Source: Desertivirga xinjiangensis (GTDB taxonomy: Bacteria > Bacteroidota > Bacteroidia > Sphingobacteriales > Sphingobacteriaceae). Taken from it: a DNA stretch of 64,000 nucleotides. Positions 16,969-25,216 of this stretch are shown here, in pieces. Every line of letters begins with the position of its first letter. Positions within the stretch are counted from its first letter, which is position 1. The translations under genes and the position numbers were made by a program. The stretch lies in contig NZ_JAFMZP010000004.1 in NCBI RefSeq assembly GCF_024436435.1, forward strand, positions 186,001-250,000, in the 5' to 3' direction. The notes beneath the pieces are model-generated. The model searched no databases. It saw nothing but the letters and a program-made list of their open reading frames with translations, and was not told where the DNA came from.

Positions 16969-17006
16969 CCTGCTTAAAAAAATAAAACTTACCAGTGATA
17001 AGGGGG

Positions 17007-18422
17007 ATGAAAAAAAAGAAAATATGGCTAATACTGGCTGGTTTACTGGTATGTCTGCTTCTGTTATTTAGAACATCAATAGAGGATAGATTTATCCCAT
17101 TGAAGGTAAAGAACATTGAACTGATGAAACTTCCTTCTAACCGTTTACGATTCCCGGTAAATATAAATGCAAGCACCGGCTGTGACGCAGTTATCCAATA
17201 CTGGAAAAAAGGGTCAAAGGATACCTTATATTCTACGGTTTCTTATGGAAAGCAACGACATCAGCTTTATATCACTAATACGGTAGCCCGCACGTCGTAC
17301 CGTTTCAGGGTGATGCTGAAGAAGGGCAAAGAAATTGCCTGCAGTAAGATCTACCCTCTGGAAACACAACCTATCTATCAGGCTACGCCTTATTTTAGTT
17401 TGGAACGTTCTGATCCCTCCGTGGATGAAGAGCTGAAAAATAAATACTTCTTAACACAGATCCTCACCCAGCCGGGTTCAGTAGTGATCATAGATCGCAC
17501 CGGCGAAATCGTATGGTATGAGGCGTTTCAGAAAGGGGTAAAAGTGAGCCATTGGACCAAAGACAGAACGGTCCTTTGTATTGTTGGACCGGAAAAAATA
17601 CCCTCCTCAGGCGGAGATGAGATCGTAGAACTGGCAATGGATGGAGGGGTGCTTACTCACTTCAAAAAAGGGAAAGGAGAGATGGATAAATTGGTTCATC
17701 ATGAGGTAAGAAAGGACAAGGAAGGTAATATCTACAGCCTCACCTTCACCAAAAAGCTCGCTGATCTTTCTTCCGTTAAGGGCAAAAAGAAGGATACCCT
17801 GAACGGCGATGGAATTGTGCTTTTCTCTAAACAAGGCAAAAAGCTTTGGGAATGGTCGGTATTAGATCATCTTGATCCTTTAAAAGATCCGGAAATACTG
17901 AAGCATAAAAAAGACTGGGTTCATGCAAACTCACTTTACAGACTAGAGAACGGTGATTTCCTAATGTCTTTCCGAGATCTTAACCAGGTTTGGAAAATTG
18001 ATTTTAAGACAGGAAAAGTATTATGGAAGCTGGGCGAGAAAGGCGACTTTACCCTGGACCCAAAACTGTTTTTCAGTGCTCAGCATTACGCACACCCGGT
18101 TCTTAATAAGAGCCTTATGATTCTGGATAATGGCGATAAAACGCATATCTCTCGGGCAATGATATTCAACCTGGATACACAGAATATGGTAGCAAATGCT
18201 GAAAGAATAGTGGCACTGCCTCCTGAATATTATACTACTGCCAAGGGCAGTGCCGGTTTATTCGGAGTAAAGAAAGACAAGTTTCTTTTCTGTTTGACCG
18301 ACCCGAGAGCGTTTCTAATCACAGACATGAAAGGAAAAATACTCTGGAAAGTCAGGGTAGGGGGAGATCCGTACCGTGTTGAAGAAATTTCTGACTTCCG
18401 AAATCCGAAACCTGTTTTTTGA
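17007..18422 (+). CDS. Arylsulfotransferase (ASST)-family protein, membrane-anchored
   Basis: This protein has an N-terminal membrane helix (LILAGLLVCLLLLF) and a six-bladed propeller. By family knowledge, bacterial arylsulfotransferases move sulfate between phenolic esters through a sulfo-histidine, without PAPS. Family residues occur in the right order: His231/His232 in VHHEV, His306 in DWVHANS, Arg323 in SFRD and His360 in SAQHYAHP, followed by LDNGD. The His-to-Arg spacing of 17 is close to that of the E. coli enzyme. The active domain should face the periplasm. The start is ATG at 17007; a GTG at 16995 is in frame. It heads an operon with permease, sulfotransferase and cysQ. It could instead be a non-enzymatic relative. 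Confidence 0.82.
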   Translation: MKKKKIWLILAGLLVCLLLLFRTSIEDRFIPLKVKNIELMKLPSNRLRFPVNINASTGCDAVIQYWKKGSKDTLYSTVSYGKQRHQLYITNTVARTSYRFRVMLKKGKEIACSKIYPLETQPIYQATPYFSLERSDPSVDEELKNKYFLTQILTQPGSVVIIDRTGEIVWYEAFQKGVKVSHWTKDRTVLCIVGPEKIPSSGGDEIVELAMDGGVLTHFKKGKGEMDKLVHHEVRKDKEGNIYSLTFTKKLADLSSVKGKKKDTLNGDGIVLFSKQGKKLWEWSVLDHLDPLKDPEILKHKKDWVHANSLYRLENGDFLMSFRDLNQVWKIDFKTGKVLWKLGEKGDFTLDPKLFFSAQHYAHPVLNKSLMILDNGDKTHISRAMIFNLDTQNMVANAERIVALPPEYYTTAKGSAGLFGVKKDKFLFCLTDPRAFLITDMKGKILWKVRVGGDPYRVEEISDFRNPKPVF

Positions 18423-18426
18423 CGAT

Positions 18427-19710
18427 ATGATGGGAAAGGTTTTTAATATGGAACATCCTGCAGCACTGCAATCTGGTGTTCAGAATAAGACGCAGCTGGT
18501 AGGGCTGGATTACCTTTTCTTTACCTTCTTTAAAATAGGACTTATATCCTTTGGTGGGCACATGGCCTTGGTTTCTGTCATTCAGAGGATCATGGTAGAG
18601 AAAGATAAGGTTCTCGAAAATGAATTTATTCTGAACAGTATCGGCATTGCCAGTTTCCTGCCCGGACCACTGGCCGTTAATGTAGTGGGACAAACAGGTT
18701 ATCATCTGCGGAAAACCAGCGGAGCCATCGTAAGTACCGTAGCAGTTATCTTGCCGGCCTTCCTGATCATCGTAGGGCTGGCCTGGTTATATTTCTCGCA
18801 GGGACAGGCATCAACCTGGAAAGTAGGAATGACGTATGTAGCTGGTGTAGTTGCTGCTGTGATCCTTACTTCCGGGATTACTTTGTTCATAAAAGAAGTG
18901 CAAGGCAATCAGAAAAAAATGCTGCTGTTTGCTGCTGCGCTGCTGACATTACTACTTTACAGCAATTACTTCGCTACGATAGCAGTGTTGCTTGGCGGTG
19001 CCTTTGCCGGAGTTTTGTTACAGGTGGCACCCGTCTCTGTCAAAGCCGTTTCTGCCGGTTCACACCACATAGAGGATTGTATATCAAAAAAGAAAGAGCT
19101 CCGGTTAATTGCAGACCGCATATTTATGCTTTTACTCGCCCTTAACCAGGTTTTGTTCTTCTCGAATCTTTCACGGCAGGTCAGTCCCCTGAATCTGCGG
19201 CTCATAACCATTTTTGCAGGCATAAGCCTTTCACTTTTTGGCGGCGGCTATGTAATGATACCTATTATGGAGGCTCTTTTTGTGAAAGATCTGCACTGGC
19301 TAAGTAGCCGCGAGTTTGTGGATGCCATTGCGTTCAGCCAGGCAACTCCGGGCCCAATCCTTATCAGCGCGGCATTTATAGGCTATAAGATATCAGGCGT
19401 CCTGGGAGCGCTGCTGGCAACTGCAGCTATATTTACCCCTTCGGTATTTCTTGTGATCAAGGTAAGCAGTTTCATAGGAAGGTTCAGGGAAAGCAACCTT
19501 CTAAGCAATATGCTTGGGGGTATTAAAGCAGTTGTTGTGGCTTTGATACTAGTTTCGGCCTACAGGATAATTTTACCGGAAAAGTTGGGTCTTATCCTTT
19601 TCGCGACTCTTCTCATTTCATTTACTTTGAATTTTCGCTATAAAGTGAGCCCGGTTTACCTTGTCGCCGGCGCAATTCTTTTTGGCGTACTAAACTATAC
19701 TATCAGTTAG
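18427..19710 (+). CDS. Chromate transporter (CHR/ChrA) family permease, two-domain
   Basis: This permease of about 427 residues and 10-12 membrane segments contains two homologous CHR halves. Each half carries the family signatures: LISFGGHMAL with LPGPLAVN in the first, and LSLFGGGYVMI with ATPGPI in the second. Known members export chromate, a sulfate analogue, and some are suspected to carry sulfate. The ATG at 18427 is preferred, 4 bases after the preceding stop; a GTG at 18376 lies inside the ASST gene. It is 2 bases before the sulfotransferase gene, so translation is probably coupled. Its position in a sulfate-activation operon suggests sulfate movement rather than chromate resistance; that is inference. 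Confidence 0.9.
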   Translation: MMGKVFNMEHPAALQSGVQNKTQLVGLDYLFFTFFKIGLISFGGHMALVSVIQRIMVEKDKVLENEFILNSIGIASFLPGPLAVNVVGQTGYHLRKTSGAIVSTVAVILPAFLIIVGLAWLYFSQGQASTWKVGMTYVAGVVAAVILTSGITLFIKEVQGNQKKMLLFAAALLTLLLYSNYFATIAVLLGGAFAGVLLQVAPVSVKAVSAGSHHIEDCISKKKELRLIADRIFMLLLALNQVLFFSNLSRQVSPLNLRLITIFAGISLSLFGGGYVMIPIMEALFVKDLHWLSSREFVDAIAFSQATPGPILISAAFIGYKISGVLGALLATAAIFTPSVFLVIKVSSFIGRFRESNLLSNMLGGIKAVVVALILVSAYRIILPEKLGLILFATLLISFTLNFRYKVSPVYLVAGAILFGVLNYTIS

Positions 19711-19712
19711 CT

Positions 19713-20738
19713 ATGGAAAATATTTCAGGCATTCAGATCATCGGTACTCAACGCTCAGGATCTAATCTTTTGAGGGTAATACTAGACCAGTCGGAAGAGA
19801 TTGCCTCTCCGCATCCGCCGCATTTACTCATCACATTTTTACCCTTACTTCCGTTATATGGGACTTTGAATGAATCCTCCTACAGAACCCTGGTGGATGA
19901 TGTGGTTGAGTATGTAAAGGCTAACCCGGTTCCATGGGAGGGAGTAATCCTGGACAAAGAGAAGATCTTCAGCTCCTCAAAAAACTATTCGCTGCCCGAA
20001 TTAAATCGTCTGGTCTACGAAGCTGCTGCCGAAGCCAAGCATTCCAGGTACTGGTGCTGCAAAAGTATGGCCAATGTTCATCACGCAGATGAGCTTGAAG
20101 CTGCGGGTTTAAATCTTAAATATGTTTACCTTTTCAGGGATGGGCGGGATGTAGCCGCATCCTTCAAAAAAGCAGTAGTTGGCGAAAAACACAGCTACCA
20201 TCTGGCAAAGCAGTGGACGAAAGACCAGGAAGCGTGCTTAAAACTGGAAGCACAACTTGATCCGGCCCGTTTTTATAAGCTCAATTATGAAACATTGATA
20301 GCCGAACCGGAAACTACGGTAAAAAGCCTTTGCCATTTTCTCGATATTACGTATTCAGAAAAAATGCTTTCTTTCTATGAATCCAGAACGTCAAAACTTA
20401 CAGCCGAAGCAGGTGAAATGTGGAGCAATCTTAAGAAGCCGATCATCAAGGATAATACAGGGAAATATTTAGATGCGTTTAAAGAGGACGATCTTGAGAT
20501 CTTTGAATCCCTTGCCGGAGGAGTCTTAAAAAAATTAGGTTATCAACTCAATACCGAGACAAGCAGCGAAAGACGTTCAGTGCTTTTTTCTCAAGACAAG
20601 ATAGGGCTCTATGATCAGATGAATTCAGAATTGAAGAAACACACACTTCAGACCGCAAAGCCTGATGATTTGGAAAACAGAAAGCCTCAGGAGCAAATTT
20701 TAAAAGCTATAAAGAACAGGTATGAAGCCAGAAATTAA
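19713..20738 (+). CDS. PAPS-dependent sulfotransferase
   Basis: This cytoplasmic 341-residue enzyme is predicted to transfer sulfate from PAPS to an unknown acceptor. The 5'-phosphosulfate-binding loop is seen as GTQRSGSNLLR (residues 11-21). The 3'-phosphate-binding motif is LFRDGRDVAASF near residue 145, and NYETLIAEPE is the usual segment further on. The acceptor cannot be inferred. The C-terminal 60 residues are charged and do not match the core fold. It starts 2 bases after the permease and overlaps cysQ by 17 bases, so these genes are one transcription unit with its own route for disposing of the PAP product. Confidence 0.9.
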   Translation: MENISGIQIIGTQRSGSNLLRVILDQSEEIASPHPPHLLITFLPLLPLYGTLNESSYRTLVDDVVEYVKANPVPWEGVILDKEKIFSSSKNYSLPELNRLVYEAAAEAKHSRYWCCKSMANVHHADELEAAGLNLKYVYLFRDGRDVAASFKKAVVGEKHSYHLAKQWTKDQEACLKLEAQLDPARFYKLNYETLIAEPETTVKSLCHFLDITYSEKMLSFYESRTSKLTAEAGEMWSNLKKPIIKDNTGKYLDAFKEDDLEIFESLAGGVLKKLGYQLNTETSSERRSVLFSQDKIGLYDQMNSELKKHTLQTAKPDDLENRKPQEQILKAIKNRYEARN

Positions 20739-21492
20739 ACCGATTTTAAAAATTGCCGTTGAAGCGGGAAAAGCCATAATGTCTGTTTACGGAGATGAAG
20801 AAGCTTTCTCTGCCGTAACCTATAAGGAAGACAGTTCACCGCTTACTGTTGCCGATAAGTTATCTCATAACATCATTGCGAAGGGACTTTCAGCCCTTTA
20901 CCCGGACATACCGGTTCTTTCCGAGGAAGGTTCAGATATCGAGTTCCAGCTACGCAAAGATTGGGAATATTACTGGTGTGTTGATCCTCTTGACGGAACC
21001 AAAGAGTTTATTAACCGCAACGGAGAGTTCACCGTTAATATAGCCCTTATTCACCGAAATCACCCGGTGCTTGGAGTGATTTATATCCCCTGTCAAAATT
21101 TGCTTTATTATGCAGATGCGTCCGGTTGCTTTAAGCAAACTCCACAAAAGGAACCAATTCCGATAAAAGCAGATCTTAAAGCTCAGGCATGGATTGCGCT
21201 AGGTAGCCGGTCTCATTCAGATACCACTGAAAATGATTTTCTAAGAGCATATCCGGTAACTGGGCTTCTTAGCGCAGGCAGCTCACTGAAGTTCTGCTTG
21301 ATAGCAGAGGGGAAAGCCCATATTTATTACCGCAAGGGCCCAACTATGGAGTGGGATACCGCTGCCGGTCATGCTATTGCCTTAAGTAGTGGCGCAATAT
21401 TTACTAATTCTGATGGTACCCCCTTTTTATACAATAAGCCCTCTCTCAAAAACGGAAGTTTTGTTTGCCAGATACTTGCAGTGCCTTCTTAG
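20722..21492 (+). CDS. cysQ: 3'(2'),5'-bisphosphate nucleotidase CysQ
   Basis: This 256-residue member of the inositol-monophosphatase fold hydrolyses PAP (3'-phosphoadenosine 5'-phosphate) to AMP. It thereby clears the inhibitory by-product of sulfotransferases. The metal-binding motif DPLDGTKEF lies near residues 89-97, with LSEEGSD upstream and the second signature MEWDTAAGHAI near 215. It overlaps the sulfotransferase gene by 17 bases. Its stop codon is 2 bases from the stop of the convergent cysC. Confidence 0.94.
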   Translation: MKPEIKPILKIAVEAGKAIMSVYGDEEAFSAVTYKEDSSPLTVADKLSHNIIAKGLSALYPDIPVLSEEGSDIEFQLRKDWEYYWCVDPLDGTKEFINRNGEFTVNIALIHRNHPVLGVIYIPCQNLLYYADASGCFKQTPQKEPIPIKADLKAQAWIALGSRSHSDTTENDFLRAYPVTGLLSAGSSLKFCLIAEGKAHIYYRKGPTMEWDTAAGHAIALSSGAIFTNSDGTPFLYNKPSLKNGSFVCQILAVPS

Positions 21493-21494
21493 GA

Positions 21495-22043
21495 TTAAAC
21501 AGGTTTAACATCCTTAATGGCTTTTTCAAACACCATTCTGGCACATTCTATTGCCGGAATGGTATGAGTAGCCAGGGTCATAACGCCAGGCTGGGGCCTT
21601 TCAAAAACAGAGTCGTACCCTGTAAAGCTCTCGATCTTATGCTGCCGGGCTTTCTTATACAAGCCCTTTACATCCCTTTGTTCACAAATCTCAATCGGAC
21701 AATCCACAAATACTTCCAGAAGATTATCTCCTAAAATATCGCGGGCAATACTTCGGTGGCTATTAAGTGGAGTGATTAGAGAACAGATAGTAATTATGTT
21801 ATTGCAGCAAAGAATCTTTGCTATTTCCGACGTCCGGCGGATGTTTTCGGCTCTGCCTTCGTCCGTAAAGCCAAGACCTGCGTTTATACCCTCCCTCAAT
21901 TGATCACCATCAAGTCTTACACAAAACAGGTTTTCCTGACTAAACATTTCGTCCAGTAAAGAAGCGATAGTGCTTTTTCCAGCGCCCGACAATCCAAACA
22001 ACCAAATAGTCTTTCCATTTTGCCCTGGTAATTTTTTATGCAT
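21495..22043 (-). CDS. cysC: Adenylyl-sulfate (APS) kinase CysC
   Basis: This enzyme of about 182 residues phosphorylates APS to PAPS. The Walker A loop is GLSGAGKST (residues 17-25). DGDQLREGINAGLGF and ENIRRTSEIAKI follow, then VFVDCPIEICEQRDVKGLYKKAR near residue 120, which is the diagnostic APS-kinase segment. ATG at 22043 is preferred; an in-frame TTG at 22076 would add 11 residues. Bacteroidota often place cysC beside cysD/cysN, but no sulfate adenylyltransferase is visible here, so APS must come from genes elsewhere. It converges with the sulfotransferase-cysQ operon, which consumes its product. The 527 bases before the TonB receptor hold its unassigned promoter. Confidence 0.95.
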   Translation of the reverse strand: MHKKLPGQNGKTIWLFGLSGAGKSTIASLLDEMFSQENLFCVRLDGDQLREGINAGLGFTDEGRAENIRRTSEIAKILCCNNIITICSLITPLNSHRSIARDILGDNLLEVFVDCPIEICEQRDVKGLYKKARQHKIESFTGYDSVFERPQPGVMTLATHTIPAIECARMVFEKAIKDVKPV

Positions 22044-22392
22044 CTCCTCTAATTTAAACAAAATTTTCGTATTCAATTATTAGCTGGGAGTTTGGACCAG
22101 GTCCCTTGTGTTGAACTCCTGCTTTGCTGTATTTTCCACTTGTAACCATTGAGCCGCGTGAAGTTGTATTTTATCACCCTCGTGCTTTTTTACGGAATCC
22201 GAATAATCATGTGATTGGTTTTCTTGTTGAAATACTTCCAATTTTTTGCGCGCAGCAGAAAAAAATAGAGCACATTTTTAGTACCATATCAGAGCTGTTT
22301 GATCAAAATTAGCATGGATTAACCAAAATAGATTTCCTGGGATCCTGAAAACATGACTATTTGCAGGATAAGGGAAGCTTGAGTAAAAAAAA

Positions 22393-22423
22393 TTTGCAGT
22401 TATGAAAAAGCAAAGTATCTTTG
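22393..22423 (+). promoter_or_regulatory. Consensus Bacteroidota promoter of the TonB-receptor leader
   Basis: TTTG at 22393-22396 is followed after exactly 19 bases by TATCTTTG at 22416-22423, matching the TTTG/TAnnTTTG consensus fully. Transcription should begin near 22430, giving a leader of about 175 bases that contains the Cys-rich reading frame. Confidence 0.8.
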
Positions 22424-22464
22424 TCTATCAGTTCTATAGATTATATAAGCAAACCCAACATGAA

Positions 22465-22539
22465 ATGAAGAAGCAAATAACAAGTTCAGTTTCCCAGACT
22501 TATTCAGGCAGCACTCTGTGTTGCGGCTGCTGTCGTTAG
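22465..22539 (+). CDS. 24-residue Cys-rich leader peptide (ends CCGCCR), putative cysteine-sensing attenuator
   Basis: An ATG 35 bases after the predicted transcription start opens a 24-codon frame whose last six residues are Cys-Cys-Gly-Cys-Cys-Arg before a TAG stop. Four cysteines in five codons at the end of a short frame is the classic layout of an amino-acid-sensing leader: ribosomes would stall there when Cys-tRNA is scarce. It lies 64 bases before the TonB receptor and next to sulfate-assimilation genes, which fits control by cysteine supply. Cysteine-rich leader frames before sulfur genes are known in other phyla; a match to a described Bacteroidota family was not checked. Expression is unproven. 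Confidence 0.6.
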   Translation: MKKQITSSVSQTYSGSTLCCGCCR

Positions 22540-22554
22540 CAGTTTGTTTGCTTC
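22470..22554 (+). promoter_or_regulatory. Possible attenuator folding around the Cys leader frame
   Basis: Three pairings compete. GAAGCAAA (22470-22477, start of the leader frame) pairs with TTTGCTTC (22547-22554, just after its stop). CTGCT (22527-22531) pairs with AGCAG (22538-22542) over the last Cys codons and stop. A GGCAGC segment near 22506-22512 can pair with the GCTGCT of the Cys codons. A ribosome parked on the Cys codons would block the second and third and change access to the downstream start. No T-run terminator follows, so translational control or Rho is more likely than intrinsic attenuation. Confidence 0.4.
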
Positions 22555-22603
22555 TCTTACAATTACTCTCAATTTTTACTAATCTCATCAAATAATCATA
22601 ATA

Positions 22604-25216
22604 ATGAAACGTACATCATATGCACTAAAACTTCTACTACTATTTGCCCTTTTAGGTCAGCTTACCCCTTTATTTGCCCAGCATACCCTTGTCGGGAATG
22701 TAAGAGACAGCAAAGGACCTTTAGCTGGGGCTAATGTGCTGGTAAGAGGTACCAAGTCCTCTGTCATCACAGATTCCATAGGTAATTTCAGGCTTAGAGT
22801 AAGCGCCGAGACGCCATTTTACCTTAGGGTCAGTTTTATTGGTTATAAGCCTCAGGATTTTCAGGTTCTCAAATTCCAGGATACGCCCTTACAGATAACA
22901 CTGATAGACGATGCTCTGCTCGAAGAAGTAGTTGTTACCTCCAGGCGTCGTTCAGAAGTATTGCAAAACGTACCCATTCCTATCTCGGTAGTGGGCGGTT
23001 CTCAGATCGAGCAGGCCGGCGCATTCAACGTTAACCGTGCGAAAGAACTTATTCCTTCCGTCCAGCTTTATACTTCCAATCCACGCAATACCGGAATTAA
23101 TATCCGTGGAATCGGTTCTCCGTTCGGACTTACTAACGATGGCCTTGATCCCGGTGTTGGTTTTTACGTAGATGGTGTATATTATGCACGTCCCGCAGCC
23201 GCTACCCTTGATTTTATTGATGTTGAACGTATAGAGGTACTCCGTGGCCCTCAGGGAACTTTGTTTGGTAAGAATACCAGTGCCGGAGCCTTTAACATTG
23301 TGACTCGTAAAGCAAGTTTCATTCCGGAGGCCTCTTTCGAGACCAGCTTCGGAAATTATGGATTTATCCAGGCGAAAGCTTCTGTATCAGGGCCCTTGAG
23401 TAGCAAACTTGCAGGGAGACTTTCGTTTTCAGGCACGCAACGCGATGGTTTGGTTGATAACGTCAAAACTGGCGTAGCAACGAACGATATCAATAACTTA
23501 GGTTTCCGTGCGCAATTGCTTTACAAGCCTTCAGAAAATGTTTCCATTACGCTTGCCGGTGATGTAAGTGATCAAAAACCTGATGGTTATGCACAAGTTG
23601 TTGCCGGGGTTGTTACCACGAAGCGTCCTGCTTATCGCCAGTTCAATGCGATAATTTCTGATCTTGGCTATTCATTGCCAAGCTTAAATGCTTTTGATCG
23701 TAAAATAGATCATGATACACCATGGAGATCAGGTAATCAATTGGGCGGAGCGTCTTTAAACGCTGAGATAAAACTAGGTCCCGGTACCTTGACATCTACT
23801 TCAGCATGGCGCTATTGGGATTGGAAGCCATCTAATGACAGGGATTTCACAGGTCTGCCTGTATTAGCTAAATCGCAAAATCCGGCAAAACACGAAAACT
23901 GGTCGCAAGAAGTTCGTTATGCCGGAGAGATTTCCGACAGGCTTAGTGGTGTAGTTGGCTTGTTTTATATCGATCAGGAAGTCAAAATTAACGGTACTGA
24001 AGAATCGGGTTCAGCTCAGGCACGTTTCTCAAAAAGTTCAACCGGCGCAAATGCAAACACTCCAGGCATAACTAACGACGAGCTGTGGGCTACCCCGGGC
24101 CTTCTGGAAGGATATGGTATTTATACAACAGCTTCTATCAAATCTCAGAGTGCTGCAGCATTTGCCAGCCTTGACTGGGAATTCTTTAAAGGGTTCCACA
24201 TACTGCCAGGTGTTCGTATCAACTATGATAATAAGGATGTAAGTTATGATCGCGCTGCAAGAGGCGGTCTTGATGTTGCTGCAAGCAGTTATAGCGCTGC
24301 AGTAAAAACAGAACTGCAAAAAATAAAGAACGGAGTATATAGCAGCCAGGCTTATGAAACCAGCGCTGACGAGAGAAATTTCACCTATTCGGTTACTGCT
24401 GCGTACAAACCAGGCAGAAGACTTAACGCCTTTGCTACGTATTCCACAAGCTTTAAGCCGGTTGGTGTAAACGTGGCCGGTCTGCCCTCTCCTGAAGCAG
24501 GCAAAACTATATTAGACTACGCGGTGATCAAACCTGAAACCACAAAGCATTATGAGTTTGGAATAAAGAGTACCCCAATAAATCATCTAACTCTGAATGT
24601 AGCATTTCATAATTCAGATATTAAAGACTACCAGACAAACGTTCAGTCTCCTGATTTGACCGTTAACCGTGGTTACATCGCCAATGCGGAGAAAGTGAAC
24701 GTTAAGGGCGTAGAGGTGGATGCCAGCTTTAGAGCCAGTCAATCATTCAATTTCTATGGTGCAGCGGCTTATACAGATGCAAAATACGGTCGTTTTACAA
24801 ACGCACCTCTTCCACTAGAAGAGACTGGATTATCACCATCATTTAAAGATATCTCCGGAGGACGCCTTCCGGGGATTTCTAAATGGGCCGGATCATTTGG
24901 CGGTGAGTTTAGTACTCCTGCTAAGTTCTTCAGGCGCGAAGCGAAATTCTTTACAGCAATCGACGGAGCTTACCGTTCTGAATTCTCATCAAGCCCATCT
25001 CCGTCAGCATATCTGAACATCGATGGATATACGCTTGTAAACGGTAGGCTGGGCTATAGATCAGTAGCTGGCTTATCCGCCTTTGTTTGGGGTCGTAACT
25101 TATTCAATAAAGATTACTTCGAGCAATTATTGCCCGCTGGTGGTAATGCAGGTCACTATGCTGCAGTTCTTGGAGATCAAAGAACATTCGGGATAACTTT
25201 GAGATACACCCTGTAA
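22604..25216 (+). CDS. TonB-dependent receptor, non-SusC type, candidate sulfur-source importer
   Basis: This 870-residue outer-membrane receptor has a signal peptide ending near LFAQ and a carboxypeptidase-regulatory-like domain (about 27-105). The TonB box region is EEVVVTSRRR, followed by a plug with NIRGIGSPFG, GVGFYVDGVYY and EVLRGPQGTLFGKNTSAGAFNIVTR, and a barrel ending RTFGITLRYTL. The plug wording resembles siderophore and small-molecule receptors of sphingomonads more than SusC, and no SusD follows. It is transcribed alone and ends before a large palindrome. The Cys-rich leader and neighbouring PAPS genes suggest import of a sulfur compound such as a sulfate ester; the substrate is inference. 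Confidence 0.9.
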   Translation: MKRTSYALKLLLLFALLGQLTPLFAQHTLVGNVRDSKGPLAGANVLVRGTKSSVITDSIGNFRLRVSAETPFYLRVSFIGYKPQDFQVLKFQDTPLQITLIDDALLEEVVVTSRRRSEVLQNVPIPISVVGGSQIEQAGAFNVNRAKELIPSVQLYTSNPRNTGINIRGIGSPFGLTNDGLDPGVGFYVDGVYYARPAAATLDFIDVERIEVLRGPQGTLFGKNTSAGAFNIVTRKASFIPEASFETSFGNYGFIQAKASVSGPLSSKLAGRLSFSGTQRDGLVDNVKTGVATNDINNLGFRAQLLYKPSENVSITLAGDVSDQKPDGYAQVVAGVVTTKRPAYRQFNAIISDLGYSLPSLNAFDRKIDHDTPWRSGNQLGGASLNAEIKLGPGTLTSTSAWRYWDWKPSNDRDFTGLPVLAKSQNPAKHENWSQEVRYAGEISDRLSGVVGLFYIDQEVKINGTEESGSAQARFSKSSTGANANTPGITNDELWATPGLLEGYGIYTTASIKSQSAAAFASLDWEFFKGFHILPGVRINYDNKDVSYDRAARGGLDVAASSYSAAVKTELQKIKNGVYSSQAYETSADERNFTYSVTAAYKPGRRLNAFATYSTSFKPVGVNVAGLPSPEAGKTILDYAVIKPETTKHYEFGIKSTPINHLTLNVAFHNSDIKDYQTNVQSPDLTVNRGYIANAEKVNVKGVEVDASFRASQSFNFYGAAAYTDAKYGRFTNAPLPLEETGLSPSFKDISGGRLPGISKWAGSFGGEFSTPAKFFRREAKFFTAIDGAYRSEFSSSPSPSAYLNIDGYTLVNGRLGYRSVAGLSAFVWGRNLFNKDYFEQLLPAGGNAGHYAAVLGDQRTFGITLRYTL

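Follow-up and report, generated by a model that had tools for sequence, protein, structure and literature searches.

Regulation by cysteine codons in short upstream open reading frames (uORFs) has been described outside the Bacteroidota. In mycobacteria, leaderless uORFs encoding polycysteine lie just upstream of sulfur-related genes and are proposed to sense cysteine through the speed of elongation (Canestrari et al. 2020, via PMC9031893, PMC9094748, and PMC13236596). In Rhodobacterales, the uORFC-8-2 motif upstream of cysS carries tandem conserved Cys codons and is proposed to sense Cys-tRNA (PMC8632094). In Escherichia coli, a ribosome that remains at the end of the tnaC leader covers a Rho-loading stretch immediately past the stop codon. 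Transcriptome papers on Bacteroidota mention leader-peptide attenuation only in general (PMC9723704, PMC7366714), and no account of cysteine leader control of a Bacteroidota receptor was found in the literature searched, which was limited to open-access papers and is not proof of absence. Attenuation by Cys codons is already known from mycobacteria; within that literature, its use on a Bacteroidota receptor appears to be new, and the initial annotation, which knew of no established case, holds in this respect.

The window analyzed here, the whole 64,000-nucleotide stretch of Desertivirga xinjiangensis DNA, contains a short cysteine-rich ORF between a promoter and the gene for a TonB-dependent receptor. 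The elements of this region are the following.

22393..22423, plus strand: Bacteroidota-type promoter, read directly in the sequence, with TTTG (22393-22396), a spacer of exactly 19 nt, and TATCTTTG (22416-22423)
22425..22446, no strand assigned: palindromic operator CTATCAGTTCTATAGATTATAT, directly 3' of the -7 box and conserved upstream of most Sphingobacteriaceae orthologues
22465..22539, plus strand: leader ORF MKKQITSSVSQTYSGSTLCCGCCR-stop, 24 codons, a Cys-run uORF kept at orthologous loci
22519..22533, plus strand: putative regulatory codons TGT TGC GGC TGC TGT, encoding Cys-Cys-Gly-Cys-Cys, with a single Arg codon between them and the stop
22540..22603, plus strand: untranslated gap of 64 nt between leader stop and receptor start, with 5% G and 20% C and without conserved structure; a candidate Rho-loading stretch
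22604..25216, plus strand: TonB-dependent receptor of 870 aa, without Cys and without internal Met; the gene proposed to be regulated

The promoter and the 24-codon frame with four Cys in five residues before Arg and stop had both been claimed in the initial annotation, and both held; the C terminus reads Cys19-Cys20-Gly21-Cys22-Cys23-Arg24-stop. A promoter pattern of the form TTTG-N17-21-TAnnTTTG is present upstream of many receptor orthologues. When the 450 nt upstream was shuffled 3,000 times with dinucleotides preserved, 0.03% of the shuffles gave an ATG-initiated short ORF in which 4 or more of 5 residues are Cys, and 1.7% gave one in which 3 or more are. At 22460-22468, a two-codon ORF, ATG AAA TGA, runs across the start codon of the leader (ATGAAATGAAG); ribosomes initiating on it would either compete with leader initiation or supply it.

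The leader resembles the mycobacterial polycysteine uORFs in being a short uORF with contiguous Cys codons (Cys-Cys-Gly-Cys-Cys in the window). It differs in phylum and in its target, since the mycobacterial uORFs precede cysteine biosynthetic genes, whereas here the gene is an outer-membrane receptor without Cys or Met and the locus carries a shared operator. In addition, the mycobacterial uORFs are leaderless, whereas the window leader starts about 40 nt past the -7 box (its ATG is 41 nt away); in other genomes studied here, the ATG lies 2 to 4 nt past CTATAGA, close to but not at the predicted transcript start. In the uORFC-8-2 motif there are two stems and a U-run intrinsic terminator; neither feature is conserved in the leaders here.

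Among the checks suggested in the initial annotation were a search for a conserved Cys-run frame at orthologous loci, a comparison of synonymous with nonsynonymous change, and a comparison with NCBI leader-peptide families. Receptor relatives are encoded at 80 loci identified by scanning 84,980 species genomes, and one more orthologue in the same genus was obtained from the whole-genome set; conservation was assessed on 68 nonredundant orthologue upstream regions, mutually less than 85% identical. Of the 68, 29 have an upstream ORF that begins with ATG and has 3 or more Cys among 5 residues, compared with 0.55 by chance (200 dinucleotide shuffles; standard deviation 0.75, maximum 4), and the first of these checks was thus passed. 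No such ORF occurs on the reverse strand of these regions, none of the other 19 amino acids is similarly enriched in their upstream short ORFs, and upstream of other genes at the same loci the count is 8/338. The Cys runs of the 29 leaders are written with 77 TGT and 29 TGC codons, a synonymous mixture indicating conservation at the level of the amino acid and not of the DNA; we infer that the Cys codons are under codon-level selection. Neither NCBIfam nor Rfam gave a match for the leader.

Leader length and the remaining peptide sequence vary; the peptides, 9 to 29 aa long, share little except the Cys run, and their non-Cys part may be only 5 to 8 residues. Examples at orthologous loci are MYKKFTHSFFLPFLSTPLCCCCC, MHIASGCCCC, MSKQVSYSPLPLNLSRFLQPCCCR, and MIKDLHFLIIKTETPREEIHPHLDCCCCC, and in Pedobacter MKTNQKTRSYCCCSHSKTVIAYFRTSH, each followed directly by the stop; contiguous CCCC or CCCCC is present in the leaders of many orthologues. 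On the receptor tree, the leader is almost confined to a pair of sister clades within the Sphingobacteriaceae and has been lost several times (14 changes, compared with 27 when labels are shuffled); more than half of the orthologues lack it, among them a Pedobacter subclade in which the operator is retained. Sequence comparison establishes that the leader is real and conserved, in an arrangement of promoter and operator, then a short ORF selected for its Cys run, and then a receptor free of sulfur amino acids.

The receptor has Plug, barrel, and CarbopepD_reg domains, and after the start codon its 870 residues include no Cys or Met. Twenty other receptors from the same genome average 1.17 Cys plus Met per 100 aa (lowest, 0.69), from which about 10 would be expected here; the Poisson chance of none is 4e-5. 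Cys is absent in 65/68 receptor orthologues and both residues are absent in 26/68, with a mean Cys plus Met content of 0.15 per 100 for the orthologues versus 3.0 per 100 for neighboring proteins. Depletion of sulfur amino acids is a recognized mark of proteins made under sulfur starvation. The receptor is sulfur-sparing and, judged from sequence alone, is likely to import a sulfur source.

The operator straddles the likely transcription start, as it is placed directly after the -7 box, and it precedes most Sphingobacteriaceae receptor orthologues with or without a leader (consensus, CTACTAAATCTATAGATTTTATAT). A strict form of the pattern has 38 matches in 101 genomes of the family and the reversed control pattern has 0; 12 of the 38 are just upstream of receptor orthologues, 5 are within 6 kb of cysH or cysD, and 1 precedes a SAM riboswitch and a further receptor (G013:C7). 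In the readable 2.8 Mb of the D. xinjiangensis genome, the best match to the operator profile is that of the window receptor, which belonged to the training set, and the second best precedes metY, encoding O-acetylhomoserine/O-acetylserine sulfhydrylase (TIGR01326). This metY site (G000:C21:259716, outside the window) is in a divergent region near apparent Fe-S assembly (Suf-type) genes. In the cysHDN operon, CCTACTTTTTCTATAGG follows the -7 box at precisely the operator's distance, a half-site match only; the cysH sequence at the operator position is CTAYYNNWTCTATAG. The sulfur link of the operator is inferred from its sharing with metY and, more weakly, with cysHDN, and from its position beside a SAM riboswitch; a sulfur-responsive repressor acting there is likewise an inference. 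The operator sits between divergent tauE and receptor genes at one locus (L110) and between an Rrf2 gene and the receptor at two others (L053 and L102). Control here would be sulfur responsive, as in the CymR/Rrf2 regulons, and outside this family some receptor orthologues have Rrf2 genes as neighbors. The D. xinjiangensis genome itself has two Rrf2 genes (PF02082 matches at C26:55308 and C3:32816). The operator binder has not been identified, and an Rrf2 protein in this role is possible, no more than a guess.

The initial annotation had also pointed to sulfur genes beside the outer-membrane receptor, and as an observation this held.

21495-22076, minus strand: CysC, adjacent to the leader and receptor
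20722-21492, strand not given: CysQ, adjacent to CysC
19713-20738, strand not given: PAPS-type sulfotransferase, in the island beside the receptor

The sulfation island as a whole (16995-22076) comprises an arylsulfotransferase-like gene, a ChrA-type transporter, the sulfotransferase, CysQ, and CysC. As conserved context for the receptor, the CysC/CysQ/sulfotransferase genes were ruled out: they were found in no relative (0/80 loci), and the island is therefore weak evidence for a sulfur role. In other families, receptor orthologues adjoin Rrf2 regulators, TauE/SafE transporters, a CysP-like permease, and arylsulfatase. The assignment of the downstream gene to cysteine or sulfur metabolism rests on indirect evidence only, namely, the Cys/Met-free receptor, the operator shared with metY and cysH, and these sulfur neighbors.

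The proposal that competing hairpins overlap the Cys codons held only in part. There is indeed a stem-loop at 22525-22544 that takes in part of the Cys codons and the stop and has a short T-rich tail; it is a single weak terminator-like match. A switch was not supported: the window leader RNA folds no better than its shuffles (z = -0.12), 25 near-type leaders at orthologous loci, which share its layout, have a mean z of 0.10, and mutually exclusive terminator and antiterminator hairpins were neither found in the window leader nor conserved in orthologous leaders. Unmasking of the receptor start dependent on ribosome position was rejected as well; masking at the first Cys codon versus the stop had no effect (36 leaders, P = 0.21). 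Far-type leaders have a gap of about 150 to 270 nt with ordinary G content and some structure, and two of their spacers fold moderately well (L061, z = -3.0; L086, z = -2.5). Hairpins recur in the far-type spacers of L061, L086, L042, and L046, with AAAGGAUG..CAUCC-like and GCGCAU pairs near the receptor start; no Rfam match to a known RNA family was obtained for far-type spacers.

The gap of near-type leaders contains 2.2% G and 22% C, compared with 13% G and 17% C before other genes at the same loci, and only 2.2% of gene starts in the genome are as G-low over the last 64 nt as the window gap. The start region of leaderless orthologues is also somewhat G-poor (6% G in the last 33 nt), and G depletion is thus only partly tied to the leader. 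The stop codon of most Pedobacter-type leaders is 31 to 38 nt upstream of the receptor ATG; in both near layouts, about 65 to 83 nt separate the Cys run from the receptor start. A rho gene is present in the genome.

These observations support the core of the original reading, that a Cys-codon leader couples cysteine shortage to a sulfur-import receptor, because the leader is conserved, the receptor is free of Cys and Met, the operator is shared with metY (more weakly with cysHDN) and found beside a SAM riboswitch, and sulfur genes neighbor the receptor elsewhere. We consider it likely that the leader is a cysteine-responsive leader-peptide attenuator before a sulfur-starvation receptor; the cysteine response and the dependence of expression on the codons are inferred, as there are no expression or ribosome-profiling data. 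In the proposed scheme, a sulfur-responsive repressor would act at the operator across the transcription start. When charged Cys-tRNA is scarce, the ribosome would halt on the Cys codons at the leader end; when it is plentiful, the ribosome would pass, terminate, and leave. In the window layout, halted and finishing ribosomes would cover almost the same RNA, and the difference would lie in dwell time, not in the choice of hairpin. Because the Cys run and the stop are only one Arg codon apart, a change of position is an unlikely signal and dwell time is the natural variable. A halted ribosome may shield the G-poor, C-containing, unstructured gap and so keep Rho from ending transcription before the receptor; with cysteine present, the gap would be exposed and transcription would stop early. 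Given the nearly G-free gap and the rho gene, tnaC-like Rho shielding is our first choice of output and mycobacterial-type translational attenuation the second; even so, we put the case for Rho shielding as evenly balanced, as the action of Rho is inferred and not shown. The tnaC leader stalls through its peptide and free tryptophan, whereas the halt proposed here would come from a lack of charged tRNA-Cys. It is possible that far-type leaders work differently and that one output mechanism does not fit all.

Translational attenuation remains possible, although it is not shown. Transcription would then always reach the receptor; ribosomes translating the leader would hinder receptor initiation, and stalling at Cys would relieve this. 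The short distance between stop and receptor ATG in Pedobacter-type leaders and the constant position of the Cys run speak for it, as does the description of mycobacterial polycysteine uORFs as attenuating translation (PMC9031893, PMC13236596). Against it, stalled and finishing ribosomes in the window would occupy nearly the same site, 64 to 70 nt before the start, and the predicted accessibility of the receptor start is equal in both states at the 36 loci. A classical hairpin attenuator, in which a stalled ribosome lets an antiterminator replace an intrinsic terminator, could draw on the stem-loop over the Cys codons and on the better-folding far-type spacers; it is unlikely in view of the near-random folding of the window and near-type leaders, the lack of an Rfam family, and Cys codons that nearly abut the stop, so that a switch dependent on position would have hardly any space.

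Peptides that arrest the ribosome form a known class, and a stretch of 3 to 6 Cys could coordinate metal, so that the nascent peptide itself might sense metal, thiol, or redox state in place of the tRNA-Cys supply. This is very unlikely, however, as the rest of the peptide is unconserved and perhaps only 5 to 8 residues long, and the gene and shared operator point to sulfur. Sole control of the receptor by the operator, with a Cys run that is accidental or a relic, finds some support in the many orthologues with the operator and without the leader, but it is all but excluded by the excess of Cys-run uORFs (29 versus 0.55 expected, none on the reverse strand) and by codon-level selection for Cys.

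Leaders of this kind also occur away from the receptor. In one Cyclobacteriaceae locus (L051, 10562-10887), the operator, a SAM riboswitch (RF00162; 69 bits, E = 4.9e-16), and a leader ending in CSCCC before its stop are stacked in one upstream region, 3' of which is a RimK-like ATP-grasp gene; this operator/polycysteine region thus has an S-box, as in S-box (SAM riboswitch) regulons, whereas the window has none. PhyH-type dioxygenase genes are preceded by leaders with C termini CSCCCC (L046, 11539) and GCCCCCC (L091, 4150), again directly before the stop, and the latter is accompanied by a diverged operator, suggesting a possible sulfur-scavenging role for PhyH-family dioxygenases with polycysteine leaders, inferred from sequence alone. 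Across 201 genomes, the operator core combined with a Cys codon pattern gave at least 28 matches with the ATG 2 to 4 nt past CTATAGA, reading openly into Cys codons; only a subset of strings chosen by hand was tested, and the count is a lower bound and not a rate. Two peptide types recur after the operator, MYxxx...MQxxxACCC and MSxKTxxFYFxxxxNHSxMRMCC. The second, more generally M(S/Y)xKTxxFYFxxxxNHSxMRMCC, directly follows the operator at G093:C16:276004, at G035:C9:752177, and in about seven more genomes, and it is not at the receptor orthologue (different contigs in G035 and G093). In another genome (G081), cysH has a polycysteine leader 4.6 kb upstream in the same orientation.

Within D. 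xinjiangensis, the 51% of the genome scanned (2.8 Mb) contains 7 Cys-run uORFs versus 3.2 expected; a wider polycysteine-uORF regulon was not supported there, as no other Cys-run uORF preceded an evident sulfur gene. The same 2.8 Mb has 2 upstream short ORFs with Trp runs, compared with none in random sequence, perhaps ordinary trp-type leaders. A loose CCxCC pattern applied to 301 genomes was discarded because it was swamped by TGC repeats. A bolder reading is that polycysteine leaders are a general sulfur-starvation device of Bacteroidota at several loci (the receptor, PhyH-type dioxygenases, the S-box gene, and the NHSxMRMCC leader of one genus), pairing one palindromic operator with Cys-codon stalling that acts via ribosome dwell time and Rho and not via competing hairpins; we offer this tentatively and lean slightly against it.

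For a widespread and uncharacterized outer-membrane receptor, the analysis suggests a likely function, import of a sulfur source, and a likely signal, cysteine supply. The operator appears to be an undescribed sulfur operator in a phylum whose sulfur regulation is poorly mapped. With the proposed control, attenuation by codon runs would reach a nutrient receptor, and this in bacteria whose translation is mostly initiated without a Shine-Dalgarno sequence; the signal in this layout seems to be carried by dwell time, not by RNA folding.
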